Assembly: GCF_020892095.1 (NCBI RefSeq)
Contig: NZ_AP024845.1
Coordinates: 1,860,001 to 1,924,000, forward strand
Source of the DNA: Claveliimonas bilis
GTDB taxonomy: Bacteria > Bacillota > Clostridia > Lachnospirales > Lachnospiraceae
Direction: 5' to 3'
Length of the DNA: 64,000 bases
Part shown: positions 7,460 to 28,084 of the stretch, one piece after another
Layout of the letters: the number at the start of each line of letters is the position of its first letter
Position numbering within the stretch: the first letter of the stretch is position 1
Notes under the pieces: generated by a model
What the model was told of the DNA's origin: nothing
What the model saw: the letters and a program-made list of their open reading frames with translations, nothing else
Database searches by the model: none
Program-made: the position numbers and the translations under genes

Positions 7460-7468
7460 TTTAAGACG

Positions 7469-7628: not shown

Positions 7629-7744
7629 AATGCAGTATGACAAAAGGAGAAACAGCAGGCACCAAAGCCCCGGAACCTGGCTGATTTCGATATAATATCT
7701 ATAAGTAAACGCATAGAATGCAACGATTCATAGGAGGTAAACCA
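7629..7744 (+). other. Leader of the rplM-rpsI transcript
   Basis: About 110 untranslated bases lie between the promoter and the rplM start. L13 leaders with autoregulatory structure are known in Bacillota. A short stem-forming segment (GGCACC...GGAACCTGGCTG) is visible, but I cannot fold it reliably. Apart from the nox and rplM control elements, nothing else is seen in 7308-7744. Confidence 0.35.
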
Positions 7745-8173
7745 ATGAAAACTTATATGGCTAGTCCAGACAAGATTGAAAGAAAATGGTATGTAGTTGA
7801 CGCTGCAGGATATACATTAGGACGTTTAGCATCAGAAGTGGCTAAGGTTTTGAGAGGAAAGAACAAACCGGAATTTACACCGCATATTGACACAGGTGAT
7901 TACGTGATCGTGATCAATGCAAAAGACGTAAAAGTAACCGGAAAGAAAATGCTTCAGAAAATTTACTACAATCACTCTGATTATGTAGGCGGAATGAAAG
8001 AAACTACACTGGCAGAGATGATGGATAAGAAACCGGAAAAAGTAATTGAGCTGGCTGTAAAAGGAATGCTTCCGAAGGGACCTTTAGGAAGAAGCATGAT
8101 TAAGAAACTTCATGTATACGCTGGACCAGAGCATGCACATCAGGCTCAGAAACCAGAAGAACTGAAATTTTAA
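7745..8173 (+). CDS. rplM: 50S ribosomal protein L13
   Basis: A 142-residue early-assembly protein of the large ribosomal subunit. The signature region [20 protein letters not shown] near the N-terminus and the C-terminal [16 protein letters not shown] segment are diagnostic. An ATG nine codons upstream at 7718 is in frame, but AGGAGGT at 7733-7739 sits 5 bases before the ATG at 7745, and the family begins at MKTYMA, so 7745 is the start. It is followed after 28 bp by rpsI in the usual L13-S9 operon. Confidence 0.98.
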
Positions 8174-10663: not shown

Positions 10664-10700
10664 GGTTATTGTCCAGTGATGGAAAAAGGAGGAAAGAAAT

Positions 10701-11516: not shown

Positions 11517-11599
11517 CTGATTCATGAAAGAACCATTGACGAAAAAATGAGAACGAAGTAAGATAATCTGTGGTAAAAAAGTTGTATGGGGGGATTCTC

Positions 11600-12961
11600 T
11601 TGAAAAACAAAAGATATGAGATCGATATGTGCAATGGTTCGATCATGGATAAACTGATTTCCTTTTCTCTGCCGCTTATGCTGACCAGTATTCTCCAGCT
11701 TATGTTCAATGCAGTGGATATTATTGTCGTAGGGAGGTTTGACAGCAGTTCGGCTCTGGCGGCAGTAGGGTCTACAACATCTTTGATCCATATTTTTACC
11801 AATCTGTTTGTTGGGATTTCCCTGGGAGCCAATGTGCTGGCTGCCAGACATTATGCAGCAGGGCGGGACAAGGAAATGTCAGAGACAGTACATACGGCAA
11901 TTACATTTGCCCTGATTTCCGGAATTGTGATGGCCTTTGTCGGCATGTATGCCGCATATCCCGTGTTACAGCTGATGGGGACCCCGTCGGATGTGATCGG
12001 GCAGTCTGTGCGCTATATGAGGATCTACTTTATGGGGATGCCTTTTTTCATGCTTTACAATTATGGATCTGCAATTCTGCGTGCAGTGGGTGATACAAAA
12101 CGACCACTGCTCTTTCTGAGCCTGGCCGGGATGGCAAATGTGGCGCTGGATCTTTTGCTGGTTATTGTCATACCGCTCGGAGTGGCCGGCGTGGCTGTCG
12201 GTACAGTGGCATCACAGTGTGTTTCTTCTATTCTTGTGGTGCGCTGTTTGTGTAAAACAGAAGGCAGTTATCAGCTTAAGTTTTCACAGCTTAAAATCAA
12301 AACGGTTCATCTGAAACAGATTTTTCAGGTGGGGATTCCGGCAGGAATCCAGAGTGTGGTGATCAATTTTTCCAATGCACTTCTGCAGTCGTCAGTTAAT
12401 TCTTTTGGCTCCATAGCCATGGCCGGATATGCGGCGGCCAACAATATCCTTGGATTTTTATATGTGGCTATCAATGCAGTAACACAGGCATGCATGAGCT
12501 TTACAAGCCAGAATTACAGTGTGGGGAAGCACAAACGTATGGACAGAGTACTGATGAACTGTATGATATTATCAGTAGGGACAGGAGCTGTTCTGGGAGT
12601 TGGGAGCTATGTGTTCGGAGGAACGATCCTGCAGATATATACGACGGAGGAAGACGTAATACGCTGTGGGCTGGAAATCCTGTCTATTACGACAGTTCCT
12701 TATTTCCTGTGCGGCATTATGGATCTGATACCGGGCGCACTGCGGGGAATGGGACATTCGGCAGTTCCCATGGTCCTGTCGGTGATAGGAACAGTAGGAA
12801 CAAGGATTGTCTGGATTTACGCGTTGTTTCCGAATCACAGGTCGCTTTATTTTCTGTTCATTTCTTATCCGGCTTCCTGGATCATTACGATCCTTATGCA
12901 GGCGGTATGTTTCTATTTCGTGCGGAAGAAATGTATATGGCATATACTGCAGGCAACATAA
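11600..12961 (+). CDS. MATE family efflux transporter
   Basis: A 453-residue membrane exporter with about 12 transmembrane helices; SLPLMLTSILQLMFNAVD and the second-half repeat QVGIPAGIQSVVINF are MATE landmarks. I take the TTG at 11600 as start: GGGGGG lies 6 bases upstream, and the N-terminus MKNKRYEIDMCNGSIMDKL is the usual form for this Lachnospiraceae subgroup. An in-frame GTG at 11570 has no ribosome binding site. Substrate unknown. It lies 83 bp after punA and directly before the left repeat of the defence island. I predict that in island-free relatives it is followed at once by the Tet-like gene now at 25421. Confidence 0.88.
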   Translation: MKNKRYEIDMCNGSIMDKLISFSLPLMLTSILQLMFNAVDIIVVGRFDSSSALAAVGSTTSLIHIFTNLFVGISLGANVLAARHYAAGRDKEMSETVHTAITFALISGIVMAFVGMYAAYPVLQLMGTPSDVIGQSVRYMRIYFMGMPFFMLYNYGSAILRAVGDTKRPLLFLSLAGMANVALDLLLVIVIPLGVAGVAVGTVASQCVSSILVVRCLCKTEGSYQLKFSQLKIKTVHLKQIFQVGIPAGIQSVVINFSNALLQSSVNSFGSIAMAGYAAANNILGFLYVAINAVTQACMSFTSQNYSVGKHKRMDRVLMNCMILSVGTGAVLGVGSYVFGGTILQIYTTEEDVIRCGLEILSITTVPYFLCGIMDLIPGALRGMGHSAVPMVLSVIGTVGTRIVWIYALFPNHRSLYFLFISYPASWIITILMQAVCFYFVRKKCIWHILQAT

Positions 12962-12980
12962 AGTTTGCCCCTCAAAGAAC

Positions 12981-13156
12981 ACAGGACAGACAATGCTTTA
13001 TCGACTTATCCCCCTTTTTGTGCTATGATAATACAGTCATTATTACAGCGCAAAAAGGGGTTTTTTCATGGAAAATACATCCAAAAATAGAGAGAAAAAC
13101 GCATCCCAAAAACAGGCGGAGCACATCTGTGTCGGTATTCTGGCTCATGTAGATGC
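12981..13156. repeat. Left 176-bp direct repeat of the defence island
   Basis: Matches 25334-25509 with six mismatches (13103, 13104, 13107, 13108, 13114, 13145) and no gaps. The first 122 bases are identical. The repeat carries a promoter (-10 TATGAT at 13024) and the first 30 codons of the Tet-like gene, ending just before the P-loop codons. Confidence 0.97.
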
Positions 13157-13172
13157 AAACAGAGAGTTCTAA
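13068..13172 (+). pseudogene. 5' fragment of the TetM/EF-G-like gene
   Basis: Thirty codons equivalent to the start of the gene at 25421, through HVDA, then four foreign codons (NREF) and a stop. The P-loop GKTT and all later domains are missing, so the product cannot be a GTPase. It marks the left junction of the inserted island. Three of the mismatches with the intact copy change residues (P to S, G to Q, R to Q), so the fragment has diverged or came from another allele. Confidence 0.9.
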
Positions 13173-13213
13173 CAGAAAGATGGACGACTTATTATTGATA
13201 ATAGTTATGTGGT

Positions 13214-13239
13214 GGATGTTAGATTAATCTCTAACATCC
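13214..13239. other. 10-bp perfect hairpin upstream of hsdR
   Basis: GGATGTTAGA (13214-13223) pairs with TCTAACATCC (13230-13239) across a 6-base loop. No T-run follows. It could be an operator for hsd control or part of the island's left end. The rest of 13173-13341 is AT-rich and shows no gene. Confidence 0.5.
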
Positions 13240-13341
13240 TCAATTATATATATATCAAAGATATTAAGTGTGATAAAATAATAAAAATTGAACAAATATA
13301 AAATAGAGTACTAGTATTGGAATGATTGAGGAGAAGATAAA

Positions 13342-16300
13342 ATGCCGGTATTTAACGAAGATACGAGAGTAAAAATTCCTGCCACAATTCAATATTTAAG
13401 ATTAGGTTATCATTATCAGTCTTTAAAAGAGGATGATATTGATATTGATTTTAACACAAAAATTTTCGTAAACAGATTTAAGCCTGCTTTGGAGAAGATT
13501 AATGGCAGAAAATTTACTTATGATGAGATTAAGGAGATTCTTGTAAATATTCACAATCTGATTAAAAATAATGATTTGGGTAAGGAATTTTATAAATGGA
13601 TTATCGACCCATTGGACAGAGTGAAACTTATCGATTTTTCAAATGTAGATAATAACGATTTTGCTGTTGTGGATGAGTTGCCTTTCAGTGTAGTTGAGGG
13701 AACCGAAGAAGGTTCATTTAGGCCAGATATTACTGTGTTAATCAACGGAATGCCATTGGCTTTTCTAGAAGTAAAGAAACCGAATAATGAAGGTGGTATA
13801 CAGGCTGAGTTTGACAGAATGATTAATAAACGCCTGAAGAATCCAGATTACAAGAAGTTTTTTAATTTGATTCAGCTGGTCTCTTTTTCCAATAATATGG
13901 AATATGAGGAAGATGACGACGCAGAGGATGTTAAGGCTGGGTCATTTTATACAACACCAAACGGAAATAATACAAACTTTTCATTTTTTAGAGAAGATGA
14001 CGAGCTGTATCATACAAATTACCAATATCAAGAAGTGACAGATGATACTGTTAAATTTGTGATGAAAGATTGTAGCTACAATCCTGCTGAAACAGATACG
14101 GTAGAATTTCAAGAAAATCTGAAGCTAATGACTCCGTGTAACAGATTTATTACCTCTGTATTTGATAAAGAACGATTTCTGTACTTTGTGCAATATGGAA
14201 TTATGTACATAAATGAAAAAGTTCCGCAAAAACATATTATGCGGTATCCGCAGTTCTTTGCTACAAGAAAAATAATAGAACGGCTGGAATCCGGCGGAAA
14301 AGGCGGGATTATTTGGCATACACAGGGATCCGGAAAAACTGCGCTTGCAGCGTTTTCTAACCGTGTGGTTCGTGATTACTATGCAGAAAAGAAGGTGAGT
14401 ACAAGATTTTTCTTTGTGGTCGACCGTTTGGATCTGTTGACGCAGGCAAGTGTAGAATTTACAAACAGAGGATTAAAGGTAGTAAACTGCGAGGACAAGG
14501 CAGGATTTACAAAGGAATTGAACAAATCCCTATCTACAAATGTAGGAACAAAATCCATAGGAGAAATCTGCGTCGTAAACATTCAGAAATTTGAAGGGAA
14601 GATGCCGGAAGCCAAGAATGAATATAAGGCGAAAGTCCAGAGAGTTTTCTTTATCGATGAAGCGCACAGAAGCTATTCGACTACAGGAGAATTCTTTAAG
14701 AATCTAATGACGTGTGATTTGGAGGGTGTGTATATTGCTCTTACAGGCACGCCATTGTTGTCAAAAAAAGAACGGTCTAATTTGAAATTCGGAGACTATA
14801 TCCATAAATACTTTTATGATAAGTCTATTGCCGATGGCTACACACTTAGAATTAAAAAAGAAAATATAGATACTGTTGCAAAATCAGAAATTAAAAAGAA
14901 TCTAGAAATAGAAGATAACGGACTAGAAGACAAAGACGTATATGAATCGGATGCGTATGTGGATGCTCTCGGGAGATTCATCGAAAAAGATTTTGTGAAT
15001 TTTCGCCTTCAGAATTCAGACCCGACTATTGGCGGAATGATCGTCTGCCGGACCAATCCTCAGGCAAAAAAAGTACACGAATGGTTTCAAGCAAATTCAA
15101 AACTTGTTACGGGACTTGTTATTACTGATACGAACGATCCGAAGCAGAAACAGATCAATAAGAATAATCAGCTTGATTTCAGAGAGACATTTACTCCGGA
15201 TATGTTGATTGTAAATCTGATGCTGACGACAGGATATGATGTAAAGCGTCTCAAGAAAATGTATCTTTTGAGAGGTCCTCATGCCCAGTCGCTTCTTCAG
15301 ACAATCTCCAGAGTAAACAGACCTTATAAATCACAAAATGGGAAAGTGTATAAATATGGGTATATCGTAGACTTTGTGGATATTGAGCAGGAATATGATA
15401 AGACGATAGAAGCGTACATTAAAGAACTAGAAGCGGACCTGAATGATAATGGAGAAAATGAAGGCTCCTTAAACGGACTTGTTATAGACAAAGAAGATAT
15501 CAACAGAAAATATCATAAGTATATGAATGATCTGGAAGATATTATTTCAACGGATAATCTGGAAAGATTTTCTAAACAGCTTACTTATTATAACAAAGAA
15601 ACGCTGCTCAAAATAAGACGCCTTTTAAATGGTATTAAAGAGTGCCATACAGAATTTATTCTTTCCAGAGCTATGGATTATGCCACGAATATTGATTCGC
15701 AGAAGGTCAAGAAACTTTTGAAAGCAACACAGGAGAGAATCGATTTTATAAATCTGTCCACAAACACGGTTAGTATGATGGACGTGATTTCTAATGACGA
15801 AGTTGTAGAAATCTTATATGAGTTTATTAAAGTTAAAGTTATTATCATGGACTTGGGGCAGATAACGCAGGATAATCCGAAATTTAAGCGCTTTTCAGAT
15901 GTGGTCAGAAGTATACAGAACGAGATTAAGAAGAACAAAAATAAAGGCGATATCAAGATACGGAAACTTGATGAGCTGCTGCAGAAGATTTTTAATGATC
16001 TTTCCATATCAGATCTGAATGATTTGGATTCCATCACAGATGAGCTGCTGGAGGCATTGGAGCGGGCAAGAAATATCAATTATGAAAATGAACGATTGTC
16101 AAAAATTTATGGTGGAAATTATGCATTTGTAAAAACATATCAGGATGCTATAGAGACATATCCTGCTGATAAGTCGGAAATTGAAAGGACATTGGTTCTC
16201 GTATACAATGCCATAGAAGATGTGATTGATAAAGAAGTCATTATTGTACAGGGACGAAAGAATTTCGCTGATTCTGTGAAAACAAAAGTGACTAAGACTC

Positions 16301-16389
16301 TGCTTAAAGAAAAATTATATGGCAAGATAAAAGGATTTTATACACAACTGTTGAATGACTTATATACAAATATTCAACTGTTTAAATGA
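13342..16389 (+). CDS. hsdR: Type I restriction enzyme, R subunit
   Basis: The motor and nuclease subunit (1,015 residues) of a type I restriction-modification complex, which translocates and cuts unmodified foreign DNA. The N-terminal PD-(D/E)xK nuclease reads FRPDITVLINGMPLAFLEVK (Asp...Glu-x-Lys). The SF2 helicase follows: Walker A IIWHTQGSGKTALA near residue 330, DEAH box in VFFIDEAHRS, motif III ALTGTPLL, and QTISRVNRPYK as motif VI. The C-terminal third is the helical HsdM-contact region. GAGGAG precedes the ATG. First gene of hsdR-hsdM-hsdS. GC content is visibly lower than in the flanking genes, consistent with transfer. Confidence 0.96.
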   Translation: MPVFNEDTRVKIPATIQYLRLGYHYQSLKEDDIDIDFNTKIFVNRFKPALEKINGRKFTYDEIKEILVNIHNLIKNNDLGKEFYKWIIDPLDRVKLIDFSNVDNNDFAVVDELPFSVVEGTEEGSFRPDITVLINGMPLAFLEVKKPNNEGGIQAEFDRMINKRLKNPDYKKFFNLIQLVSFSNNMEYEEDDDAEDVKAGSFYTTPNGNNTNFSFFREDDELYHTNYQYQEVTDDTVKFVMKDCSYNPAETDTVEFQENLKLMTPCNRFITSVFDKERFLYFVQYGIMYINEKVPQKHIMRYPQFFATRKIIERLESGGKGGIIWHTQGSGKTALAAFSNRVVRDYYAEKKVSTRFFFVVDRLDLLTQASVEFTNRGLKVVNCEDKAGFTKELNKSLSTNVGTKSIGEICVVNIQKFEGKMPEAKNEYKAKVQRVFFIDEAHRSYSTTGEFFKNLMTCDLEGVYIALTGTPLLSKKERSNLKFGDYIHKYFYDKSIADGYTLRIKKENIDTVAKSEIKKNLEIEDNGLEDKDVYESDAYVDALGRFIEKDFVNFRLQNSDPTIGGMIVCRTNPQAKKVHEWFQANSKLVTGLVITDTNDPKQKQINKNNQLDFRETFTPDMLIVNLMLTTGYDVKRLKKMYLLRGPHAQSLLQTISRVNRPYKSQNGKVYKYGYIVDFVDIEQEYDKTIEAYIKELEADLNDNGENEGSLNGLVIDKEDINRKYHKYMNDLEDIISTDNLERFSKQLTYYNKETLLKIRRLLNGIKECHTEFILSRAMDYATNIDSQKVKKLLKATQERIDFINLSTNTVSMMDVISNDEVVEILYEFIKVKVIIMDLGQITQDNPKFKRFSDVVRSIQNEIKKNKNKGDIKIRKLDELLQKIFNDLSISDLNDLDSITDELLEALERARNINYENERLSKIYGGNYAFVKTYQDAIETYPADKSEIERTLVLVYNAIEDVIDKEVIIVQGRKNFADSVKTKVTKTLLKEKLYGKIKGFYTQLLNDLYTNIQLFK

Positions 16390-16405
16390 CAAAGGAGACG
16401 AAATA

Positions 16406-18070
16406 ATGCCGGATATATTTACGTTGGAAACAAAGATAAAACAGATGATTGATGAATTGAAAGGACTCTGCCAGACGAATGGTCTCTCTAATCAGGCAAG
16501 TGAAGAGGTAGTTATTACATCTGTGTTTCTTTATAAATTCTTGAACGATAAATTCATGGCAAATCTGAAAGATTTTGCTAATGAAATAGGGCTTAGTAGT
16601 GAAGAAGTCCTTAATGATAAGGAAGATGAGTTATCAGGTTTTTATGATTCCTATCCCCGGGATGTGGCGTTTAGGTATGAAGATACAATTGAGTGTTTAA
16701 TTAATGAGGTAGGGAATGATGATTTTTATCGCCTTTTTGATGATGCTTTGGAACGCATATCTAATTATCCACGGAACGAAGAGTTTAGTATTGATACAGC
16801 GGATGGCGGAAGAAAGCCATTGTTTACAAGGATTACAGAAAATGTAGAGGTATCCAAGCGGAATAATTTTGCTAAGAATATATTTGGGATTATAAGTCAG
16901 GACAAGTTTGATTTTGGCGAAGCCTTTAAGAATAATTTTGATTTTTACAGTGCAATCTTTGAATATCTGATCAAAGACTATAATGTTGCCAGCGGGGTCT
17001 ATGCAGAATATTTTACTCCACAGGCGATTTCCAGTATCATTGCGAAAATACTGGTGAATATGACTCCGGTAGAGGATAAGATTTATGAAATATATGATCC
17101 GTCAGCAGGATCGGGCTCTTTAGTTCTTCATCTTGCAAATGAATTGGGAGAGGGGGTTTTTGGCGACAGGGCGCAGGTATATACGCAGGATATCTCAGGA
17201 AAGTCTTCACGTTTCCTTAGGATCAATATGCTGCTGAACGGACTGACAAATTCTTTGGACAATATTATTGAAGGCGATACATTGGACGCTCCGGCGCATT
17301 ATAATATCCCTCATGATCCAGGATCTGGAGTAAAGAAATTTGATTATATTACTTCTAATCCACCGTTTAAAATGGATTTTTCTGCTACACGGGATATGAT
17401 AGAACAGAAGTGGTCGGATACTGACAGATTTTTCGCAGGTGTGCCGAAAATTCCAAATAAAAAGAAAGAGTCAATGGCAATCTATCTCTGTTTTATCCAG
17501 CATATTCTCTGGAGTTTAAAAGATGACGGGAAGGCAGCGATTGTAGTTCCAACTGGATTTATTACGGCACAGTCAGGAATTGAAAAGAAAGTGCGCCAGA
17601 AGATAGTAGACGAGCATTGGCTGAAAGGCGTGATTTCGATGCCATCCAATATTTTTGCAAATACAGGAACGAATGTCTCGGTGCTTTTTATAGATAAGTC
17701 TAATCAAGACGGAAAGATTATGCTTGTGGATGCTTCTAAGCTTGGTGAAAAAAGAAAAGAGGGAAAGAACCAAAGAACAGTTTTAAGTGAAAAGGAAGTT
17801 GAAAAAATAGAGAATACCTTTATTAATCAGGAAGTTGTAGAAGATTTCAGTGTGCAGGTGTCTTATGAAGAGATTCAGGAGAGGAATTATTCCTTATCGG
17901 CAGGGCAGTATTTTGAAGTCAAGATCGAGTATGTGGAGCTGAGTCCGGAAGAATTTAATCAGAGGATGGCGGCGTATTCTTTCCGGCTGGAGAAGTATTT
18001 TGCAGAGGGGAAAAGGCTGGAAGAAGAAATCGAGGAACGGCTAGGAGAGCTAAAATATGATAGAACTTAA
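16406..18070 (+). CDS. hsdM: Type I restriction-modification N6-adenine methyltransferase, M subunit
   Basis: The 554-residue methylase subunit, which protects host sites by methylating adenine with SAM. The N-terminal helical HsdM domain is followed by the SAM-binding motif DPSAGSGSLVLHL and the catalytic motif TSNPPFKMDF (NPPF). The start is the ATG at 16406 with AAAGGAG 8 bases before it; an in-frame upstream Met at 16355 lies inside the end of hsdR and has no such site. It overlaps hsdS by 14 bp, indicating translational coupling. Confidence 0.96.
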   Translation: MPDIFTLETKIKQMIDELKGLCQTNGLSNQASEEVVITSVFLYKFLNDKFMANLKDFANEIGLSSEEVLNDKEDELSGFYDSYPRDVAFRYEDTIECLINEVGNDDFYRLFDDALERISNYPRNEEFSIDTADGGRKPLFTRITENVEVSKRNNFAKNIFGIISQDKFDFGEAFKNNFDFYSAIFEYLIKDYNVASGVYAEYFTPQAISSIIAKILVNMTPVEDKIYEIYDPSAGSGSLVLHLANELGEGVFGDRAQVYTQDISGKSSRFLRINMLLNGLTNSLDNIIEGDTLDAPAHYNIPHDPGSGVKKFDYITSNPPFKMDFSATRDMIEQKWSDTDRFFAGVPKIPNKKKESMAIYLCFIQHILWSLKDDGKAAIVVPTGFITAQSGIEKKVRQKIVDEHWLKGVISMPSNIFANTGTNVSVLFIDKSNQDGKIMLVDASKLGEKRKEGKNQRTVLSEKEVEKIENTFINQEVVEDFSVQVSYEEIQERNYSLSAGQYFEVKIEYVELSPEEFNQRMAAYSFRLEKYFAEGKRLEEEIEERLGELKYDRT

Positions 18071-19211
18071 AGAATGTGTTGAAATTTTAGATTCAAAAAG
18101 AATTCCGCTATCCGCCTTGGAAAGAAAGCGATTAAAGAAAATATATCCATATTATGGAGCACAAGGTATTATAGATTATGTAGAAAACTATATTTTTGAC
18201 GGTGAATATATCCTAATTGCGGAGGACGGAAATAATTTAAAATCTTTGCAGCAAAATATTGCAACATGGGTAGAAGGAAAGTTCTGGGTTAATAATCATG
18301 CACACATTTTAGGTGAGAAAAAAGGGTACAATTTGCGATACATATATTATTTGCTGAGTATCTTAGATTTGCGGGGATATATTACCGGATCAGCACAACC
18401 TAAATTGAACCAAGAAAATTTGGCAAGTATACAACTTCAACTTCCAAATATCAATAGACAAAATAAAGTTGCACAAATACTCTCTTGTATTGATAATAAA
18501 ATTGCAATTAACAATAAAATAAATTCTGAGCTTGAAACAATGGGAAAAGTAATTTACGATTACTGGTTTTTGCAATTTGAATTTCCTAATGAAAAAGGAA
18601 AACCTTATAAATCATCGGGCGGTAAGATGATATGGAACGAAAAGATGAAAAGAGAAATTCCAGAAGGGTGGAAAGCTATTAAACTACAAGATGTTTTTTC
18701 GTTTGTGAAGGGGAAAACACCAAGCATAACGTTTGATAATAGTATGGAAGGGGCATATCCCTATATAACTATCGATGTCGCCAATGGTGGGAAAAGCCAA
18801 TATTGCTTTTTAGATGATATGCCTGTTTGTAATGGAGAAGTAATAATGGTTATGGATGGAGCGGCAAGTGGAGATATTTATATTGGTAATAGAGGAGTAT
18901 TGGGATCTACGTTTGCTATGTTGAAGAAAAAAAGTGAAGATATTTCTGACGCTTTAATATATGTTATTCTTAGTAGCCGGAAAAACGTATATAAGAAAGT
19001 GAATACGGGGTCAACAGTACCACACGCAAATAAAAAATTTATCGAAAACATGAGAGTTCCTGTTGCAGATAATATGAGCAGTTTTTCTAGAGTTTTTGAT
19101 GAAATATATAAAAAAATTGAATTAACTAAAAGAGAAAATCAGGAATTAATATCTCTCCGAGAGTTTTTACTTCCACTGTTAATGAACGGACAAGTTAGTT
19201 TTAAGGAATAA
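18057..19211 (+). CDS. hsdS: Type I restriction-modification specificity subunit
   Basis: A 384-residue DNA recognition subunit with two target recognition domains, each followed by a helical spacer. The first ends near residue 170 (KVAQILSCIDNKIAINNKINSELE marks the spacer start), the second begins around IPEGWKAIKLQDVF and ends in the coil ELTKRENQELISLREFLLP. The first domain is short at its N-terminus compared with most HsdS proteins. The recognised sequence cannot be read. No second hsdS or recombinase lies nearby, so there is no visible shuffling of specificity. Confidence 0.94.
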   Translation: MIELKECVEILDSKRIPLSALERKRLKKIYPYYGAQGIIDYVENYIFDGEYILIAEDGNNLKSLQQNIATWVEGKFWVNNHAHILGEKKGYNLRYIYYLLSILDLRGYITGSAQPKLNQENLASIQLQLPNINRQNKVAQILSCIDNKIAINNKINSELETMGKVIYDYWFLQFEFPNEKGKPYKSSGGKMIWNEKMKREIPEGWKAIKLQDVFSFVKGKTPSITFDNSMEGAYPYITIDVANGGKSQYCFLDDMPVCNGEVIMVMDGAASGDIYIGNRGVLGSTFAMLKKKSEDISDALIYVILSSRKNVYKKVNTGSTVPHANKKFIENMRVPVADNMSSFSRVFDEIYKKIELTKRENQELISLREFLLPLLMNGQVSFKE

Positions 19212-19227
19212 CTTAGGAGGAAGATTT

Positions 19228-22200
19228 ATGGCATATGAAAAAGGCGGAAGGGCAGATAAATATGGAAATCGCTTTGAGTATAATTGGATTATCTATAATC
19301 TGCTAGATGTAGTGAAGGAAAAAATTTCATATGTTATGATCGAAGCTATAGGTGAAGATGAAAAAGGTGTAGACCTTTGGATTGGAAATGTAGACGGTAC
19401 ACGTGAAGGGCAGCAGTGTAAAGGGCGATATGGAGATGAAGATCAATGGACATATGGTATGGTCAATGCAAAAGGAATATTTGCAAATTGGAAGAAACAG
19501 TTAGAACTTTCCCCACAGAATCATATTGCATTAGTTTCTCCATTGTCATTTACCGTATTTGAAGATCTGTTACAGAAAGCAAAGGATACTGACAATTCTA
19601 AGCCAAAAGATTTTTATGAATATCAGATTAAACAAGCAGGAAAAAATACAAAAGATTTTTTTGATAAGTATTGTAAAGTGATGGGACTGGATGAAAAAAA
19701 GGATGAAGATATACAACTTGCGATAAATTACCTGTCCCGAAGCCATTACCGTCAGATCCCTGATGCTCAGTTAAAAGAAATGATTCTCGATAAGATAAGC
19801 ATGAGATATGTTGGAAATCCTGAAGATATCTATGCTAAATTTTTGAGATTTATATTGACAGAGGATACCTATGGGCAGCGAATAGACGCGTTGCGAATCA
19901 AGAAATTTTGCGATGATACCGGTATTATTTACAGAGATTTGTCAAGAGATGATACTATCCTGCCGCGTATTGACAAGTTAAATAAAGAATATTGTAATAC
20001 CTTTTTCGGCTTTTCAAAGGGACTTCTGCCCCGCAGTCAGGCAGAATATTGCCAAAAGGCGATATTAGAGGGCAAGTCAGTCGTATTACATGGGAAAGCA
20101 GGAGAAGGTAAAAGCGGATGTGTGCAAAATCTTATTTATATCCTTGAGGACTTAAGTATACCATATCTGGCGATAAAACTTGATCATAGAGTGCCGGAGG
20201 GGACTTCGAGCAATTGGGGAAAGAAAATAGGATTACCGGATTCGATTTCGTATTGTCTGGATGCAGTCGCGAAAGATAGAAGCGGTGTACTTATATTAGA
20301 TCAGTTGGATGCACTGAGATGGACACAGTCACATTCTGGCGAAGCTCTATCAGTGTGCATGGAAATTATCCATGAAGTGGCAAACATTAATCTGGAACGT
20401 GAAAAGAAAATTTCTGTTGTTATGGTTTGCCGGACATATGATCTTGAAAATGATCGAAATATTAACGGGTTATTTATGCATGAGGAAGGGAGTGTTTCTT
20501 TAGAATGGGAAAAGATTGCTGTAGGTAAACTGAGTGCTGATGAAGTAAAAAAGATTGTAGGAAATACATATAATCTTCTGCATGCAAAATTGAAAAGTTT
20601 GCTGCAGACAGCGAGCAATCTTTATATATGGGAACAATTAGATAAATCGAAAAACTATTCTGAGATCCAGACGACACAGCAGTTGATTCAAAGATGGTGG
20701 GAGGAACTGCACAGTAAAGCGGAAAAGGCTGGGATTCAAGAAGAAAAGCTAAATGAAGTAAAAGATAGATTTGCAAATATTTGTGATAAATATGGAAAAA
20801 TAACAGTTCCACGAGCATTGTTGAATGTGTCGAGTGATTCTTGTGACTTCCTGCAGACGAATAGATTTTTTGTCGTGAACGATAATGTGGTTTCATTGGC
20901 TCATCAATCAATTTTAGATTATTTTCTGGTACAGAATATGCTGGAAAAAGTCTGTAAAGATTGTAGTATTGAAGAAATTATCGGGGGAAAAGAAAAACAG
21001 ACACCCGGACGCAGATATCAGGTTCAGATGCTTTTTCAGCAGTTACAGGAAATATGGGCTGAAAAATTTCTTGGCATGGGAGAAATGCTGCTAAATTCAG
21101 AGAGTATCAGATTCAATTTAAAATATGTGTTTATAGAAATATTATCCCAGATAGAACAGCCTGATCAGGATATATTTTTGCTTGTAAAAAAATACATACA
21201 AAATCCAGAGTGGCAGATTCATTTTCTTGATGGAGTCGTATTGGGCAAGAAACAATATTTGATATTTTTAAGAGATGTAGGTGTCTTAGATACATGGATG
21301 GAAAGCGAGGAATTGCAAGATCAGGTGATTCGATTGTATGCCAGCATTTCACCTGATTTTGATAATGCTGATATAGGATTTATAGAAAAATACGCCTTGA
21401 AAGAGAAGGAAAATATAAAATGGGGAAACTGTTTTTTAAGAAATATAGACGAAGACAGCGATGAGCTGTTTGAATTACGTTTAAAGGTGTATGATAAATA
21501 TCCTGATTTATTAGAGTACAACGTAGATATTATATCGATGCTTAAAGTATGTCAGATACGCACGGTGCGTATTCTGGCACTTATGTTAGAAAAACAGAAA
21601 AAAAGAAATGGGGAAACGCTTTATCGGTATGAGGAAAAACTAGTTTCAGAAGATGTAGAATTATTTAATTCATCATACAGGGAGGTTGTCTCGATATTGT
21701 TGCCCCATGTTCCGTTAAATGGATCTGATTTAACGAAGATATATGCTTGGTCTGCACGATATATGAGTAAATATGCACTTGAGAGAACATGTATAGAAAT
21801 TTTGAAAAAAGCGAATCGAAAATATGCGCAAAACCAACCTGAGGAATTTATGGAAATTCTTAAAACATATATGGGAACAGGCATGCATTTGCATAATGAA
21901 ATTGTTTTAGATGCACTGAAATATTTGCCAAACCAGTATGCGGATTATATAGCGGACTACCTATGCACTGGACTCGAACGAACGATGATAGAAGACACAA
22001 GTGGAAATAAAGATGCCCTTTTGTTAAGTAAGGGATTGGTAGGGGACATTACAGCAAGATGCAGTGAAGAGAGTTATAAAAAAATAGAATATGGAATTAT
22101 TCATTTCATTCCTGCAAATGCAAAAAGAACCCTTAAAGGACGTATTGAATTTAATAGGGAAAAACAAAAAAACGGTGGAATTGTTACTTGGCGGTTTTGG

Positions 22201-23733
22201 GGATTCTTTCAGAAAGAGATGCTGGGGATTTTACCCGGGTATAGAATAAGTGGAGAGGCACGCAATTTGTTAAGTGTTTTACAACGTTCAATCCCCGGGG
22301 AATATTCCCCTTATCATTATAATGATGGCCACGGTGGCAGCGTGTGGTCACCCGTTGCCCGTAAAAAATTATTTTTTCGAAATTGGAAAGGAATAATAAC
22401 AAACAAGAAAATCCCGAAGGAAAGAACGAATCATTGGAAAGAAGTGAAAGGTGGTTTTATAGAAAGTACAGTATTTGAATTTGCATCCGATTTTAGAGGA
22501 AGGGTTTCAGAGGATCCAACAGAGTTCTTGCAGAATATGCTTGATTTTGACGGTGAGGTTGTTGAAGAGTATGTGAATGCTTTGTTTGATGGCATTGCTT
22601 ATAGCGAACATCTGGATGAGATTGATATTACGCTTCTTGAGAAAATGTTTGAAAAATATGAATATGATTATGAAAAAGAGAGAGCGCAGATAATTTGCCG
22701 TATCATTGAAAAGCGGAAAGATGTATCATGGTCAGATGCTGTAATAGAAATGCTAATTGATATAGCCGGAAACCATAAGAATCCTAAACCGGGAGAAAGT
22801 TGTATTGCATCCAATGATACGAAAACAAAGAATTCTGTAGAGACTTTAGAAACAGACGCGATTAATTGTACACGAGGCGTTGCGGCAAGCGCGATTGGTC
22901 ATCTGCTGTGGGAGCGAAAAGAATTATTTGAAAAATTCAAGCCAACGATTATAAAATTAATGCAGGATGAGAATACAGCGGTTCGTTTTGCCAGCCTTGA
23001 TGCACTATGGCCAATCTATAATGTTGATAAAGCTTGGACAGTATCTAATGTTTTATCTGTCTTTAAGAGTGATAACAGAACAATCGGATGTCGAGGAAGT
23101 AAGTGCCTATTTGTATGTGAGTATGAAAGGCATAAAAGGAAAATGAAAAGGCTTTTGAAAAAGGCATTTTTTTCAAGTGATAAAAGACTGATACAGATTT
23201 CTGGATATGCTATAGCAGAAATATATTTACGATATGATGCTTTTGAAAATATACTAAATCAAATCGCCAGTCTGAATAAAGAGCAGGCAGATGCATTATT
23301 GGAAATGTTTATTGTATATCTGGGACTTGAAGAATACAATTCCAAAGTAAAAGCTATTTTATACAAGGTTATTGAGCTAGGGATTAGTATGGAACTGGAT
23401 CACACATGGGCGCGCATTTTCTATGATGAAAGAATTGAATTGAAAAGAGATAAGGAATTCTTGAAGAAATTAATGTCGTCCGATGTAGGCGGTAAATTAC
23501 TGTATGTATTTATGGATTATTTTAAAAAGGGACAAAAATTATATGATTATGCAGAAATAATAATAGATACAGGAAAAAGTATGTTCCAAGACCAGAAAAA
23601 AGTTTTGGATGCAGATTATCTTATCGAATATAATTTGTCTAAGTTGATGATTGCTCTTTATGATGAAGTCTGTAATACTGACATTGAAAAAAAAAAGAGT
23701 ATGAGGCACAATGTCTGGATATATGGGATTTGA
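19228..23733 (+). CDS. Avs-like protein: PD-(D/E)xK-type nuclease, STAND NTPase, helical repeats
   Basis: A giant cytoplasmic protein of 1,501 residues. The N-terminus (about 1-160) has a nuclease-like core: GGRADKYGNRFEY, then GVDLWIGN and GQQCKGR, an Asp...Gln-x-Lys arrangement seen in Mrr/Cap4-type DNA nucleases. An NTPase follows: Walker A VLHGKAGEGKSG near residue 289 and Walker B GVLILDQLDAL near 353, in the style of STAND ATPases. The last 900 residues look helical and HEAT-like (MQDENTAVRFASLDALWPI). This order of domains is that of Avs antiviral sensors, which recognise phage proteins and then cut DNA. It follows hsdS by 16 bp, so it may be co-expressed. The C-terminus is affected by an A10 tract (see findings); a one-base shift would extend the protein to 23792. 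Avs membership is inferred. Confidence 0.75.
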   Translation: MAYEKGGRADKYGNRFEYNWIIYNLLDVVKEKISYVMIEAIGEDEKGVDLWIGNVDGTREGQQCKGRYGDEDQWTYGMVNAKGIFANWKKQLELSPQNHIALVSPLSFTVFEDLLQKAKDTDNSKPKDFYEYQIKQAGKNTKDFFDKYCKVMGLDEKKDEDIQLAINYLSRSHYRQIPDAQLKEMILDKISMRYVGNPEDIYAKFLRFILTEDTYGQRIDALRIKKFCDDTGIIYRDLSRDDTILPRIDKLNKEYCNTFFGFSKGLLPRSQAEYCQKAILEGKSVVLHGKAGEGKSGCVQNLIYILEDLSIPYLAIKLDHRVPEGTSSNWGKKIGLPDSISYCLDAVAKDRSGVLILDQLDALRWTQSHSGEALSVCMEIIHEVANINLEREKKISVVMVCRTYDLENDRNINGLFMHEEGSVSLEWEKIAVGKLSADEVKKIVGNTYNLLHAKLKSLLQTASNLYIWEQLDKSKNYSEIQTTQQLIQRWWEELHSKAEKAGIQEEKLNEVKDRFANICDKYGKITVPRALLNVSSDSCDFLQTNRFFVVNDNVVSLAHQSILDYFLVQNMLEKVCKDCSIEEIIGGKEKQTPGRRYQVQMLFQQLQEIWAEKFLGMGEMLLNSESIRFNLKYVFIEILSQIEQPDQDIFLLVKKYIQNPEWQIHFLDGVVLGKKQYLIFLRDVGVLDTWMESEELQDQVIRLYASISPDFDNADIGFIEKYALKEKENIKWGNCFLRNIDEDSDELFELRLKVYDKYPDLLEYNVDIISMLKVCQIRTVRILALMLEKQKKRNGETLYRYEEKLVSEDVELFNSSYREVVSILLPHVPLNGSDLTKIYAWSARYMSKYALERTCIEILKKANRKYAQNQPEEFMEILKTYMGTGMHLHNEIVLDALKYLPNQYADYIADYLCTGLERTMIEDTSGNKDALLLSKGLVGDITARCSEESYKKIEYGIIHFIPANAKRTLKGRIEFNREKQKNGGIVTWRFWGFFQKEMLGILPGYRISGEARNLLSVLQRSIPGEYSPYHYNDGHGGSVWSPVARKKLFFRNWKGIITNKKIPKERTNHWKEVKGGFIESTVFEFASDFRGRVSEDPTEFLQNMLDFDGEVVEEYVNALFDGIAYSEHLDEIDITLLEKMFEKYEYDYEKERAQIICRIIEKRKDVSWSDAVIEMLIDIAGNHKNPKPGESCIASNDTKTKNSVETLETDAINCTRGVAASAIGHLLWERKELFEKFKPTIIKLMQDENTAVRFASLDALWPIYNVDKAWTVSNVLSVFKSDNRTIGCRGSKCLFVCEYERHKRKMKRLLKKAFFSSDKRLIQISGYAIAEIYLRYDAFENILNQIASLNKEQADALLEMFIVYLGLEEYNSKVKAILYKVIELGISMELDHTWARIFYDERIELKRDKEFLKKLMSSDVGGKLLYVFMDYFKKGQKLYDYAEIIIDTGKSMFQDQKKVLDADYLIEYNLSKLMIALYDEVCNTDIEKKKSMRHNVWIYGI
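23687..23696 (+). other. A10 homopolymer at a frame junction
   Basis: Ten consecutive A residues near the end of the Avs-like gene. In the annotated frame the protein ends 13 codons later at 23733. With one extra A the frame continues for 32 codons to a TAA at 23790-23792 and gives a coherent helical tail containing CLDIWDLMFENRLG. Confidence 0.7.
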
Positions 23734-23825
23734 TGTTTGAAAACAGGCTTGGCATTACCCGTGATTTAACAGAAAAACTGACAGAAATGTAATTTGATAA
23801 ATGTATGTGAAGAGAGGTGAAATCT

Positions 23826-25307
23826 GTGAATTTTGATATGTCTCAATTTGATTCCTACCGTGAAGATAACCGACGAGAGGTTAAAAGGGCGAAAGGCGGA
23901 CTTCCGGTTTCATTGTGGGAAACGTATTCTGCATTTGCTAACTGTTATGGCGGAGTTATTATCCTGGGGGTAAAAGAGAATGAAGATGGAAGCTGGCATA
24001 TGACCGGATTAGATAATGCGGCTAAGCTGCGAAAAGACTTCTGGGATATGATTAATAATAAAAATAAGGTTTCGGTAAACTTGCTGACGGATAATGATGT
24101 GGAGATATATGAAGAAAACAATAATGCTATCATGGTTATTCGTGTCCCTAAGGCAAGGAGGGAACAGAAGCCGGTATATATTAACGACGACATGTTTAAT
24201 GGTACTTTTCGCAGAAATTGGGAGGGAGACTATCATTGTGATCACAGTGAGGTGCTTGCAATGCTTCGAGATCAGCCAGAAGAAACCGCTGATATGAAAA
24301 TTTTGCAGGATATGTCTCTTGAAGTGCTTAATTCAGAAACTGTACGTGCTTATCGTAATCGGCATATGGCTTATAGAACGGAACATGTATGGGAGAGGCT
24401 AAACGATGAAGAATATTTGGAGAGAATAGGCGCTGCAAAGTTGTCTGCTAGGGATCACATGTTGCATCCTACTGTTGCAGGATTGCTGATGTTTGGAGAG
24501 GAATATAGGATTTTGTATGAATTTCCGGAATATTTCCTGGATTATCGGGAAATTCTTGATCCTAGTATCCGGTGGACGGACAGATTGCAATCTAGTTCCG
24601 GTGACTGGACAGGGAATTTATTCGATTTCTTTTTTCGAGTTTATGGGAAAGTTGTGAAAGATTTGAAAATTCCTTTTAAACTGGAAGGGATAACCAGAGT
24701 AGATGATACGCCTGTGCATAAAGCGTTGAGAGAAGCCTTGGCGAATTGTTTGGTAAATACAGATTTTTACGTTCCAAGAGGAATTGTGATTCGGAAAGAT
24801 GAAAAGACTATCGTAATGGAAAATCCGGGAAGTATCAGAACTGGAAAAGAGCAGATGCTGAAAGGAGGTATATCGGATCCCAGGAATAAAGCTTTGATGA
24901 AGATGTTTAATTTGATTGGGATTGGAGAAAGAGCAGGAAGCGGTGTGCCGGATATATATAGTGTCTGGGAGCGGCAGGGGTGGGAGCAGCCGGAGGTCAT
25001 AGAAGAATATGGACCAGACAGAACCATTTTAAAATTATCATTTGTAAAAAAAGTGGCGATAAAAAATGGCGATAAAAAAGTGGCGATAAAAAGCGGTGAT
25101 AAAAAGAAAGTGACAAAAAAGACAGAACGACAGATGGAGACTGTTTTGGAATACATGCTTCCGGACAAAGAATATAAAACAAGTGAGATAGCAGAAGTCA
25201 TCGGAGTGAAAGAGTCAAGAGCCAGAGTTTTGGTAAATGAACTTGTAAAGCGAAATAAGATAAAAGCGATCGGAAAGAACAAAGGGCGCAGATACAAAAT
25301 CAAATAG
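23826..25307 (+). CDS. AlbA_2 (Schlafen-type) ATP-binding putative regulator with C-terminal winged helix
   Basis: A 493-residue protein often found beside type I restriction systems. The N-terminal AlbA_2 domain reads REVKRAKGGLPVSLWETYSAFANCYGG and IILGVKENEDGSW, ending with GTFRRNWEGDYHCD. A middle GHKL-like part (ALREALANCLVNTDFY, GIGERAGSGVP) resembles COG2865 proteins. A lysine-rich linker with two tandem 9-residue repeats KVAIK(N/S)GDK follows, then a winged helix (KTSEIAEVIGVKESRARVLVNELVK). I chose the GTG at 23826, 6 bases after GAGAGGTG; a GTG at 23817 overlaps that site. Role in the island is unknown; RNA/DNA binding and control of restriction are possible. Confidence 0.82.
   Translation: MNFDMSQFDSYREDNRREVKRAKGGLPVSLWETYSAFANCYGGVIILGVKENEDGSWHMTGLDNAAKLRKDFWDMINNKNKVSVNLLTDNDVEIYEENNNAIMVIRVPKARREQKPVYINDDMFNGTFRRNWEGDYHCDHSEVLAMLRDQPEETADMKILQDMSLEVLNSETVRAYRNRHMAYRTEHVWERLNDEEYLERIGAAKLSARDHMLHPTVAGLLMFGEEYRILYEFPEYFLDYREILDPSIRWTDRLQSSSGDWTGNLFDFFFRVYGKVVKDLKIPFKLEGITRVDDTPVHKALREALANCLVNTDFYVPRGIVIRKDEKTIVMENPGSIRTGKEQMLKGGISDPRNKALMKMFNLIGIGERAGSGVPDIYSVWERQGWEQPEVIEEYGPDRTILKLSFVKKVAIKNGDKKVAIKSGDKKKVTKKTERQMETVLEYMLPDKEYKTSEIAEVIGVKESRARVLVNELVKRNKIKAIGKNKGRRYKIK
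25050..25103 (+). repeat. Tandem 27-bp repeat, two copies, inside the AlbA_2 gene
   Basis: 25050-25076 and 25077-25103 share AAAGTGGCGATAAAAA and differ at a few bases near the end. The unit is a multiple of three and encodes KVAIK(N/S)GDK, so copy-number change would alter linker length without a frameshift. Confidence 0.85.
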
Positions 25308-25333
25308 ATAAAGCTTTCCGCTCCTTAAACGAT

Positions 25334-25509
25334 ACAGGACAGACAATGCTTTATCGACTTATCCCCCTTTTTGTGCTATGATAATACAGTCATTATTACA
25401 GCGCAAAAAGGGGTTTTTTCATGGAAAATACATCCAAAAATAGAGAGAAAAACGCGCCCGGAAAACGGGCGGAGCACATCTGTGTCGGTATTCTGGCCCA
25501 TGTAGATGC
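25334..25509. repeat. Right 176-bp direct repeat of the defence island
   Basis: Partner of 12981-13156. It carries the promoter and first 30 codons of the intact Tet-like gene. The island proper would then be 13157-25333, about 12.2 kb. Confidence 0.97.
25354..25382 (+). promoter_or_regulatory. Promoter of the Tet-like GTPase-NYN gene
   Basis: TCGACT (25354-25359), a 17-bp spacer and TATGAT (25377-25382) preceded by TG (extended -10). An inverted repeat CCCCTTTTTGTGC / GCGCAAAAAGGGG followed by TTTTTT spans 25364-25417. On DNA it overlaps the promoter and the ribosome binding site, and in readthrough RNA it would form a terminator just before the ATG. Confidence 0.6.
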
Positions 25510-28084
25510 GGGGAAAACGACATTGGCGGAAGGCATATTATACCAGACCGGACAGATCCGTAAATTGGGCCGGGTGGATCATAAAGATGCGTTTCTTGAT
25601 ACCCATGCAATGGAGAAGGAGAGGGGGATCACCATCTTTTCCAAGCAGGCAGAACTTATCATTGGAGAGAAAGAAGTGACGCTTCTTGATACGCCGGGAC
25701 ATGTGGATTTTTCCGCAGAGATGGAGCGGACGCTGCAGGTGTTGGACTATGCGGTCCTTGTGATCAGCGGATCGGACGGGGTGCAAGGCCATGTGGAAAC
25801 GCTGTGGCACCTGCTGAAGTGTTATGATATACCAACGTTTTTGTTTGTCAATAAAATGGACCTGGAAGGAACAGACAGGGAGCAGCTTATGGAAGAGCTG
25901 AAGGAACGGCTTTCTGATGACTGTGAGGATTTTATGCGGGACGGTGAACAGGTTGATGAGGAGTTTTGTGAAAGGATCGCCCTCCATGACGAAACCCTTC
26001 TGGAAGAGTATCTTGAAGGAAATATGCCGGGGAGGGAAGACATTGCAGGCCTGGTAAAAGAAAGGAAGCTGTTTCCCTGCTTTTACGGTTCGGCCCTTAA
26101 GATGGAGGGGGTACAGCAGTTTTTGGATGGTCTGGACCGGTACATGGAATATCCTGTCTATCCCCGGGAATTTGGCGCCAGAGTCTATAAAATTTCAAGA
26201 GACAGTTCAGGTATGAGACTGACCCATCTGAAAGTGACGGGCGGAACGTTGAAAGTGAAAATGCGTCTGGATGAGACGAGCGAGGATAAGGCGGAACAGA
26301 TCCGCATTTATTCCGGGACAGGTTTTCAGAATGTAACAGAGGCCGGACCCGGAACAATCTGCGCCCTGATCGGACCGCGGACCAGTTATGCGGGGCAGGG
26401 ACTGGGCATAGAGAAACAGTCTGAAGCGCCGATTCTGGAGCCGGTGCTGACTTACCGGCTGCAGCCGCAGGTGGATTGCGACATGCACAGTCTTTGCCTG
26501 AAGCTTCGGCAATTGGAGGAAGAGATTCCGGAAATGCACATCGTATGGCAGGAGGAACTGTCGGAAATCCATATACAGATCATGGGTGAAGTGCAGATGG
26601 ATATTTTAAAAGCTCTCATTCTGGAGCGGTTTGGAGTGCCGGTTTCCTTTGGGGAGGGAAGCATTGTATATAAGGAGACGATTGCCGCCCCGGTGGAGGG
26701 AGTGGGACATTTTGAGCCTCTTAGGCATTATGCGGAAGTCCATCTTCTCCTGGAACCGGGGGAGAGAGGAGAGGGACTGCAGTTTGCAGCGGAATGCAGT
26801 GAGAATATGCTGGATGTAAACTGGCAGAGACTGATATTGACCCATCTGGAAGAGAAAAAGCACAGAGGAGTGCTGACCGGTTCTGAGATTACAGATATGA
26901 AGATCACACTCATTGCAGGACGGGCCCACCAGAAGCATACCGAAGGCGGAGACTTCCGCCAGGCTACATACCGGGCAGTGCGCCAGGGACTTCGGAAAGC
27001 GGAAAGTGTTCTTCTGGAACCGGTGTATGAATTTCGGATCGAGGTTCCCCAGGAGCAGATCGGGCGTGTGCTTGCAGATGTGCAGCGAATGAGCGGCAGT
27101 TTTGAGCCTCCCGTTGCAGAAGGGGATCGGATGATCTTAACCGGAAGCGCCCCGGTAGTCTGTATGAGAGGATATCAGACAGAACTTCTGTCCTTTACCG
27201 GCGGAAGAGGGCGGTTTTTCTGCACGCTGAAAGGATATGAGCCCTGCCACAACCAGGAAGAAATCGTAGAAAAGATGGGATATGATCCGGAGGCGGATAC
27301 TGATAATCCGACAGGATCCGTATTCTGCGCTCATGGAGCGGGATTTACCGTCAGCTGGGATCAGGTGGAAGATTATATGCATGTGGAAGGGATCCGAAAG
27401 AGAGAAGAGGCGGAGGAAGTATCGGAGCTGGAGGATCGAAGGCATAGAGTTCACACTGCCATGGCAGATGAAGAGGAGCTGAAGGCGATTTTTGCGCGAA
27501 CGTATGGTTCCGGAGAAAAGCGCACTGCATGGAAGCGCACCGTGCATTCGGAAAGCAGCGGCACCTATAGAGGAGAGAAGAAGAAAAAAGGAAAAGAATA
27601 CCTTTTGGTGGATGGATACAATATTATTTTTGCATGGGAAGATCTGAAAGAACTGGCTAAGGAGAATATTGAGGCAGCCAGAGGGAAGCTGATGGATGTT
27701 CTCTGCAATTATCAGGGTTATCGCAAAATGACGCTGATCCTTGTATTTGACGCATATAAAGTGCCGGGATACACAGGGGAAGTGCAGAAATATCATAATA
27801 TTTATGTTGTTTACACCAAGGAGGCAGAGACGGCGGATCAATATATTGAGAAGACTGTGCATGAGATCTCAAAAGAGCATCAGGTGATGGTCGCTACCTC
27901 GGACGGTCTGGAGCAGATCATCATAATGGGACAGGGGGCAAGAAGACTGTCTGCACAGGGGCTTCTTCGGGAAATAAAGGATACAGGGAAAGAAATGCGC
28001 CTGCAGCATATGGACCGCTCTGTTTCCGGAAAAGCGTATTTGTCCGAGATCATGCCGGATGATGTTTTGAACTCCGGGGAATGA
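25421..28084 (+). CDS. TetM/EF-G-like ribosomal-protection GTPase fused to a YacP/Rae1-like NYN domain
   Basis: An 887-residue protein. The GTPase domain has GILAHVDAGKTTLAEG (G1), RGITI (G2), LLDTPGHVDF (G3) and FVNKMD (G4), with the TetM-like EF-G domains II-V ending in GYQTELLSFTGGRGRFFC. A charged linker (about 690-725) leads to a C-terminal NYN/PIN-like ribonuclease domain: YLLVDGYNIIFAW, LILVFDAYKVPG, ETADQYIEK and VATSDGLEQ supply the expected acidic residues. Rae1 (YacP) of Bacillus cleaves mRNA in the ribosomal A site, and TetM-like GTPases also bind there, so the fusion could clear or cut mRNA on stalled ribosomes. Tetracycline resistance is possible but not implied. AGGGG precedes the ATG. 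The defence island abuts its 5' end. Confidence 0.88.
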   Translation: MENTSKNREKNAPGKRAEHICVGILAHVDAGKTTLAEGILYQTGQIRKLGRVDHKDAFLDTHAMEKERGITIFSKQAELIIGEKEVTLLDTPGHVDFSAEMERTLQVLDYAVLVISGSDGVQGHVETLWHLLKCYDIPTFLFVNKMDLEGTDREQLMEELKERLSDDCEDFMRDGEQVDEEFCERIALHDETLLEEYLEGNMPGREDIAGLVKERKLFPCFYGSALKMEGVQQFLDGLDRYMEYPVYPREFGARVYKISRDSSGMRLTHLKVTGGTLKVKMRLDETSEDKAEQIRIYSGTGFQNVTEAGPGTICALIGPRTSYAGQGLGIEKQSEAPILEPVLTYRLQPQVDCDMHSLCLKLRQLEEEIPEMHIVWQEELSEIHIQIMGEVQMDILKALILERFGVPVSFGEGSIVYKETIAAPVEGVGHFEPLRHYAEVHLLLEPGERGEGLQFAAECSENMLDVNWQRLILTHLEEKKHRGVLTGSEITDMKITLIAGRAHQKHTEGGDFRQATYRAVRQGLRKAESVLLEPVYEFRIEVPQEQIGRVLADVQRMSGSFEPPVAEGDRMILTGSAPVVCMRGYQTELLSFTGGRGRFFCTLKGYEPCHNQEEIVEKMGYDPEADTDNPTGSVFCAHGAGFTVSWDQVEDYMHVEGIRKREEAEEVSELEDRRHRVHTAMADEEELKAIFARTYGSGEKRTAWKRTVHSESSGTYRGEKKKKGKEYLLVDGYNIIFAWEDLKELAKENIEAARGKLMDVLCNYQGYRKMTLILVFDAYKVPGYTGEVQKYHNIYVVYTKEAETADQYIEKTVHEISKEHQVMVATSDGLEQIIIMGQGARRLSAQGLLREIKDTGKEMRLQHMDRSVSGKAYLSEIMPDDVLNSGE

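Follow-up and report, generated by a model that had tools for sequence, protein, structure and literature searches.

A Schlafen-type gene and a long direct repeat of a GTPase-YacP gene's 5′ end in Claveliimonas bilis and relatives

In Claveliimonas bilis, five genes lie between two direct copies of the 5′ end of a native chromosomal gene encoding a GTPase fused to a YacP domain. We consider it most probable (about 0.6) that the repeats are a target duplication that arose when a defence unit with a Schlafen gene at its end was inserted. The constant partner of the duplication is this AlbA_2 (bacterial Schlafen) gene, not hsdRMS. In the proposed mechanism, insertion itself would generate a long target duplication of variable length, and homologous recombination within the target's 5′ region would then spread the unit. 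The defence genes would now be driven from a promoter in the left copy, and the right copy would keep the target gene working. The analysis centers on a 64,000-nucleotide stretch of the chromosome, referred to as the window, and coordinates are those of the window unless another genome or locus is named.

The repeat pair and the genes between its copies

The two copies, 12981–13156 and 25334–25509, match over 176 bp with six mismatches (13103, 13104, 13107, 13108, 13114 and 13145), all within the last 54 bp, which reproduces exactly what an earlier, sequence-only reading had described. The match can be extended leftward without gaps by 14 bp, with five further mismatches, to the full copies listed in Table 1. 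Only one second family of direct repeats of at least 30 nt was detected in 10500–28000 (34 nt, 76%). A search of the same genome with 25200–26600 gave two hits, one at each copy (six of 39 first-look candidates were scored). Each copy contains a promoter-like site and a strong hairpin, along with the target gene's start codon and first 29 codons. Promoter-like consensus sites are not enriched (one found versus 2.0 expected in shuffles), and no Rfam family reached its gathering score in 12900–25600.

Table 1. Coordinates of the repeat copies, the genes they enclose and the flanking genes in the window
Feature	Position	Strand	Basis or remark
MATE transporter gene, left neighbor of the unit	11570–12961	+	PF01554 over cut-off
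Left copy: leader and first 29 target codons	12967–13156	+	190 nt, 94% identical to 25320–25509
Promoter-like site in left copy, TCGACT-17-TATGAT	13001–13029	+	Consensus match only
34-codon open frame remaining in left copy	13068–13172	+	Sequence reading
hsdR	13342–16389	+	HSDR_N, SWI2_SNF2 and others over cut-off
hsdM	16355–18070	+	PF02384 over cut-off
hsdS	18057–19211	+	PF01420 over cut-off
1501-aa putative NTPase gene (Avs-like gene of the earlier reading)	19228–23733	+	AAA_22 E 0.013, below cut-off; PADLOC PDC-M54A E 6.7e-12
Schlafen-type gene, last gene of the unit	23817–25307	+	PF04326 and PF13749 over cut-off; structure model and fold matches
Right copy: leader and 5′ end of intact target gene	25320–25509	+	Same-species strain G061 has identical letters at the six mismatch sites
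Leader hairpin	25364–25413	+	−27.8 kcal/mol, z −5.94; identical letters at 13011–13060
Target gene: TetM/EF-G-like GTPase fused to YacP NYN domain	25421–28084	+	Pfam; tet_protect 423.4 bits, cut-off 775

The right copy begins 13 bp after the stop codon of the Schlafen gene and continues into the intact target gene, whereas the left copy ends at the codons preceding the P-loop GKT. The left copy had been called a dead fragment. It is dead as a gene, but it retains the whole leader and may be the promoter of the hsd genes. All five genes between the copies run in the direction of this leader.

The R, M and S subunits of a type I system are all present by Pfam families over cut-off and by PADLOC models; the NCBIfam scores for hsdR (237.7, cut-off 284.55) and hsdM (178.3, cut-off 242.75) are both below threshold. 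The 1501-aa protein has no Pfam family over cut-off. Its matches are limited to AAA_22, below cut-off, and PDC-M54A, and neither an Avs model nor a STAND NTPase domain exceeded its cut-off. Six other ORFs of at least 80 aa occur inside the unit (82–178 aa), all on the opposite strand and overlying unit genes. Identification of the genes between the copies from ORFs, Pfam and PADLOC found no recombinase, integrase or transposase, in agreement with the earlier reading. That reading was also right on hsdR, hsdM, hsdS and the AlbA_2 gene, and on a GC content lower than in the flanks: per kb, GC is 0.33–0.41 in 13001–25000, and outside the unit it ranges from 0.36 (7001–8000) to 0.52, mostly at or above 0.41. 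A 436-aa ORF at 934–2244 on the minus strand, about 10.7 kb from the left copy, looks DDE transposase-like by eye.

The target gene carries the extra YacP domain, and its tet_protect score falls below the curated cut-off for tetracycline ribosomal protection. Relatives of this gene were collected as 57 loci (19 plus 38, the latter being the named genome loci). In an alignment of 11 leaders, two of which are the window's identical copies, the hairpin arms are kept in most by eye, with one paired change (T-A in the window, C-G elsewhere) and one mismatch in L053. The leader hairpin and first codons (ATGGAAAATACGTCTGA-like; window 25352–25450) are unusually alike across Lachnospiraceae, which suggests that the GTPase-YacP gene has a regulated leader.

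Schlafen inserts, empty sites and flanking repeats in relatives

The Schlafen protein matches SLFN_AlbA_2 (PF04326, 39.5 bits, cut-off 25.3) and HATPase_c_4 (PF13749, 38.1 bits, cut-off 26), giving the order SLFN_AlbA_2, GHKL ATPase and a C-terminal HTH-like part. A structure model (mean pLDDT 84.7) was matched by Foldseek to 3lmm, 2kyy and the N domain of SLFN13 (5yd0, E 6e-4), with low TM-scores because the domains match singly. Glu16 and Glu21 are invariant in 38 aligned Schlafen proteins. Their spacing is that of Glu205 and Glu210 of SLFN13 (PMC5862951) and is suggestive of candidate catalytic residues. The gene product is a predicted RNase. PMC12839542 describes defence loci with Schlafen RNases that also carry a minimal histidine kinase and a wHTH.

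An AlbA_2 relative stands just upstream of the target gene in four of the 57 target loci (L021, L048, L053 and L064), whereas no hsd or NTPase match at E 1e-8 was found near the target in any of the 57, the stretch examined being short for many. Conversely, window hsd or NTPase proteins were matched near one of 59 Schlafen loci (L142, hsdM). NTPase relatives occur in six of 250 genomes, the window's own included, and the other five are 30–42% identical; with relatives this scarce, the hsdRMS-NTPase block was rejected as a known fixed unit.

The clearest separation of the duplication from hsdRMS is found in a congener, G003 (L021), where two leader copies (76 bp, 96%) surround the Schlafen gene alone. 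The sequence-only reading had tied the duplication to the hsdRMS island and had named island-free relatives with both copies as evidence against it. G003 comes close to such a relative, since it lacks hsd and the NTPase at this site and keeps both copies, but the AlbA_2 gene is present. The earlier proposal of an insertion that leaves its target gene intact is supported; the attachment of the duplication to hsdRMS is not. Because their junctions differ, the window and G003 do not represent one event.

Filled and empty sites were found within the genus of G062. A 2.5-kb stretch spanning the junction was compared with twenty genomes; the 12 top-scoring matches were taken as loci, and eight of these, G062 included, were aligned in detail. 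G062, G685 and G693 have a Schlafen gene in front of the target. In G383, G682 and G694 the site is empty: the sequence is continuous and contains an 18-bp stretch once. G062 and G685 have this stretch in duplicate, as does G693, where the right copy carries two changes. The G062 insert between the 18-bp copies is 1638 bp and holds only the Schlafen gene. Compared with G062, the three empty-site genomes are 89–96% identical over the left 755 bp and 97–99% over the first 900 bp of the target. Of the remaining two, the G678 sequence stops at the site, and G691 lacks an insert and differs on its left side.

A lone Schlafen relative also occurs at an unrelated site, between sortase and transporter genes in G236, flanked by a 62-bp duplication at 98%. 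Four genomes of that genus were searched; the sortase and transporter genes adjoin without an insert in G333 and G334, and G332 gave no match. The duplicated piece is an intergenic stretch in G236 and the 3′ end of a gene in G315. The presence and absence of Schlafen inserts among close genomes, with 18- and 62-bp repeats and empty sites, supports the insertion reading. So does the position of the right repeat, which begins 8–53 bp after the Schlafen stop in five loci, much as in the window. No recombinase gene lies within the inserts of G062, G236 and G003, and visual inspection of the G062 and G236 insert ends showed no terminal inverted repeats. In G376, a relative of G024, no Schlafen gene precedes uvrB, and the duplicated stretch is unrecognizable there.

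Relatives of the Schlafen protein at E 1e-30 or better were found in 51 of 299 family genomes. Fifty-nine Schlafen loci were oriented, 53 of them with enough flank, and a repeat was called at a score of 36 or more. A flanking repeat was present in eight of the 53 loci and in none of 29 RhuM control loci (30 fetched, one without a usable ORF). An earlier comparison gave 7/38 for Schlafen genes and 4/192 for other ORFs of at least 300 aa in the same loci. These differences correspond to Fisher p values of 0.046 (versus RhuM) and 0.0004 (versus other ORFs), or 0.085 and 0.006 once two doubtful loci are removed, in counts that exclude the window's own locus and in which loci from close relatives are non-independent. 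The greater frequency of flanking repeats at Schlafen loci argues for insertion; the lack of one at the other 45 of the 53 loci, and the doubt over two of the eight, were counted against it.

The two doubtful cases were set aside, L145 since its repeat is the Schlafen gene's own start, apparently from a deleted second copy, and L176 since it is a distant homolog. At about 7250–7600 of L145 (oriented), the start of a Schlafen gene is joined directly to its end; an intact copy lies next to this fusion, which has the look of an internal-deletion copy. Also set aside as ambiguous was a 100-bp repeat at 92% in G004 (L104, 7280–12176), whose copies stand upstream of a Schlafen relative and upstream of the neighboring flagellin gene and together span about 4.8 kb.

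Among gene clusters common to at least three loci, the target gene is the sole immediate downstream neighbor of Schlafen genes in at least three. Ten upstream neighbors were tested. Several are of defence type (a TOTE primase-helicase, two GmrSD, a Fic, an AAA protein with PD-DEXK and a weak Schlafen-group helicase match), and one is a tyrosine integrase. The last belongs to L241 (G672), where the Schlafen relative lies directly behind the integrase gene; some Schlafen units may travel with an integrase. In L149 and L151, from two genomes, Schlafen relatives are located just downstream of an EF-Tu gene, again a translation-factor neighbor.

One further genome of the same species, G061, was available. 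Its flanks are 98.9–99.1% identical to the window, with the MATE gene at 88%. The order is PNP, about 10 kb of other DNA, MATE, a truncated Schlafen (AlbA_2) remnant and one leader copy. The earlier reading had looked to a strain with MATE directly before the Tet-like gene, and none was found; G061 is not an empty site, and its Schlafen remnant was counted against the insertion reading. Other cargo near the site, which had also been anticipated, is present. By eye from ORFs, G061 C1 at about 2783500–2793300 (L103), between PNP and MATE, holds an apparent different type I system in which hsdS is represented by several pieces, together with a Fic-like gene and one resembling a tyrosine recombinase. 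Because these 10 kb differ, the stretch from PNP to the target varies in defence content within the species. One repeat copy had further been proposed to come from another strain. The clustering of the mismatches fits this proposal, and G061 has the right-copy letters at all six sites; a foreign origin is possible.

Transfer between genera and alternative explanations

The Schlafen genes have moved between genera and reached the same target, as judged from sequence comparison, because the Schlafen genes are related in a way that the target genes are not. All four full-length Schlafen genes located at the target group in one clade (support 98/99). Between G003 and L053, the Schlafen proteins are 94% identical over part of the gene and the target proteins 60%; fourfold-site identity is 0.72 and 0.35, respectively, the target values being near saturation. 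The corresponding protein identities are 91% and 62% between G003 and G062, and 84% and 70% between G003 and the window, which belong to one genus. This decoupling of the Schlafen gene from its target is a further argument for insertion.

The comparison supports transfer accompanied by recombination within the target's 5′ region, because identity between genera breaks there. From G003 to L053, identity is 89–92% in the Schlafen gene, 97% in the 34 bp behind it and 78% in the leader, and within the target it is 86% over the 35 positions after the start and 55–63% in the body. Between G069 and L048, it is 91–95% through the Schlafen end and the first 60 target columns and then 59–72%, with the alignment break about 31–40 nt after the target start codon. 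Homologous recombination between gene copies, one of the routes first suggested for this locus, thus belongs to the history of the site.

Could recombination account for everything? DNA from another strain, carrying the Schlafen or defence genes beside a piece of the target gene, might have entered in a single Campbell-type event, with no special insertion step. In favor of this account, the inter-genus breaks lie inside conserved target sequence, the window mismatches cluster at one end of the repeat, and divergence from G062 on the left flank is 11% in G694 and 4% in G383, against 1–3% on the target side. It leaves unexplained the lone Schlafen gene between unrelated 62-bp intergenic copies in G236, as well as the other repeat-flanked cases, and we regard it as unlikely.

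Placed behind it, and likewise improbable, is an integrase-type island whose fixed core would lie among the GTPase gene's P-loop codons and which would supply a new 5′ end, its integrase being lost or acting in trans. The end of the left copy before the P-loop GKT fits such a core, as do the loss of identity in G069 and L048 about 31–40 nt into the target and the integrase beside the Schlafen relative in L241. However, no integrase lies between the copies, the junctions of G062 and G003 fall within the leader rather than among the P-loop codons, the repeats differ in length (18, 62, 76 and 190 bp), and other inserts occur at unrelated sequences. Because junctions are lineage-specific and inserts occur at unrelated sequences, a fixed-site integrase was rejected as the main reading. 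A plasmid or phage vehicle was rejected as well: the 17 plasmid and 13 phage records matching the Schlafen protein are all below 60% identity, and none of nine pattern matches to viral stretches was confirmed.

A prior tandem duplication of the target start, with defence genes captured later behind a spare promoter that gave useful expression, would suit the promoter-like leader and the shared gene direction but is very improbable, given one copy at the empty sites of the G062 group, duplicated pieces in G236 and G315 that are an intergenic stretch and a 3′ gene end, and no target locus among 57 (in an unsystematic look) with two leader copies and no Schlafen gene.

The insertion reading must itself accommodate the integrase at L241, the lack of both a left copy and the usual leader in G069, the differing junctions of G003 and the window, and the possibility that the 18-bp case, taken alone, is an ordinary insertion. 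Its order of events is partly visible in G062, where a 60-column stretch upstream of the Schlafen gene matches the end of the NTPase gene and the following gap (score 44). In a narrower comparison of oriented loci with enough flank, G062 scored 41, the next best 22 and the mean 16.5. A separate alignment of G693 to the NTPase gene end scored 50. In G003 and G069 the match is short and confined to the ribosome-binding site (score 20). Because G062 and G693 retain this NTPase-end remnant ahead of the Schlafen gene, the one-gene unit found in the G062 group resembles a reduced NTPase-Schlafen unit, and at least there the one-gene form would derive from a longer NTPase-Schlafen form.

Quite unlikely, in our estimate, is the further step of making the Schlafen protein of this clade the mobility determinant of an integrase-free unit. 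It would nick target DNA or hold it open, perhaps at leader hairpins, and the unit would be copied in, with nick spacing setting the duplication length, other defence genes riding along when located ahead of the Schlafen gene and the GTPase-YacP leader preferred in several genera.

For the question of how defence genes move without an integrase, this locus offers a compact case: among close relatives some sites are filled and others empty, one target serves in multiple genera, and the units form a series from one gene to five. If the left copy drives the defence genes, insertion borrows the promoter of the target yet spares the target itself. It also places a predicted RNase beside the GTPase-YacP gene, two proteins likely acting on translation.

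Comparison with known systems

SXT integrates at the 5′ end of prfC, which regains a complete 5′ end and promoter. The present locus is similar in that a translational GTPase gene was entered at its 5′ end and has a complete 5′ end and promoter afterwards. Unlike SXT, the window has no integrase between the copies, junctions vary (window, G003 and G062), the duplications are long and of unequal length, and relatives use unrelated targets. IS elements of the IS1634/IS1549 kind also produce long target duplications of variable length, but the window has no transposase gene between the copies.

The Schlafen gene resembles the Schlafen RNases of PMC12839542, as far as that source was available, in domain order and defence-gene neighbors. 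Those are described there beside BREX and related systems, whereas the genes here have a type I system and a putative NTPase gene as neighbors or form single-gene inserts.

The closest parallel is the insertion of restriction-modification genes with long target duplication (Nobusato et al. 2000; Furuta et al. 2010, as cited in PMC1643837, PMC3031569 and PMC4978471). To the extent that these citing papers describe it, the shared features are a recombinase-free insert, a long duplication whose length varies from case to case (here 190 bp in the window, 76 bp in G003, 62 bp in G236 and 18 bp in G062) and, in the window, restriction genes in the insert. Within the same limits, three features differ: relatives here carry a lone Schlafen insert that lacks restriction genes, several genera share one target gene, and the duplicated piece includes the promoter and start of the target. 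Among the matches listed in a search of titles on bacterial Schlafens and long target duplications, with subscription literature mostly outside its reach, none described this pattern for Schlafen genes. The pattern is known for restriction genes, and it is seen here around single Schlafen genes, at a shared target, in several gut bacteria.
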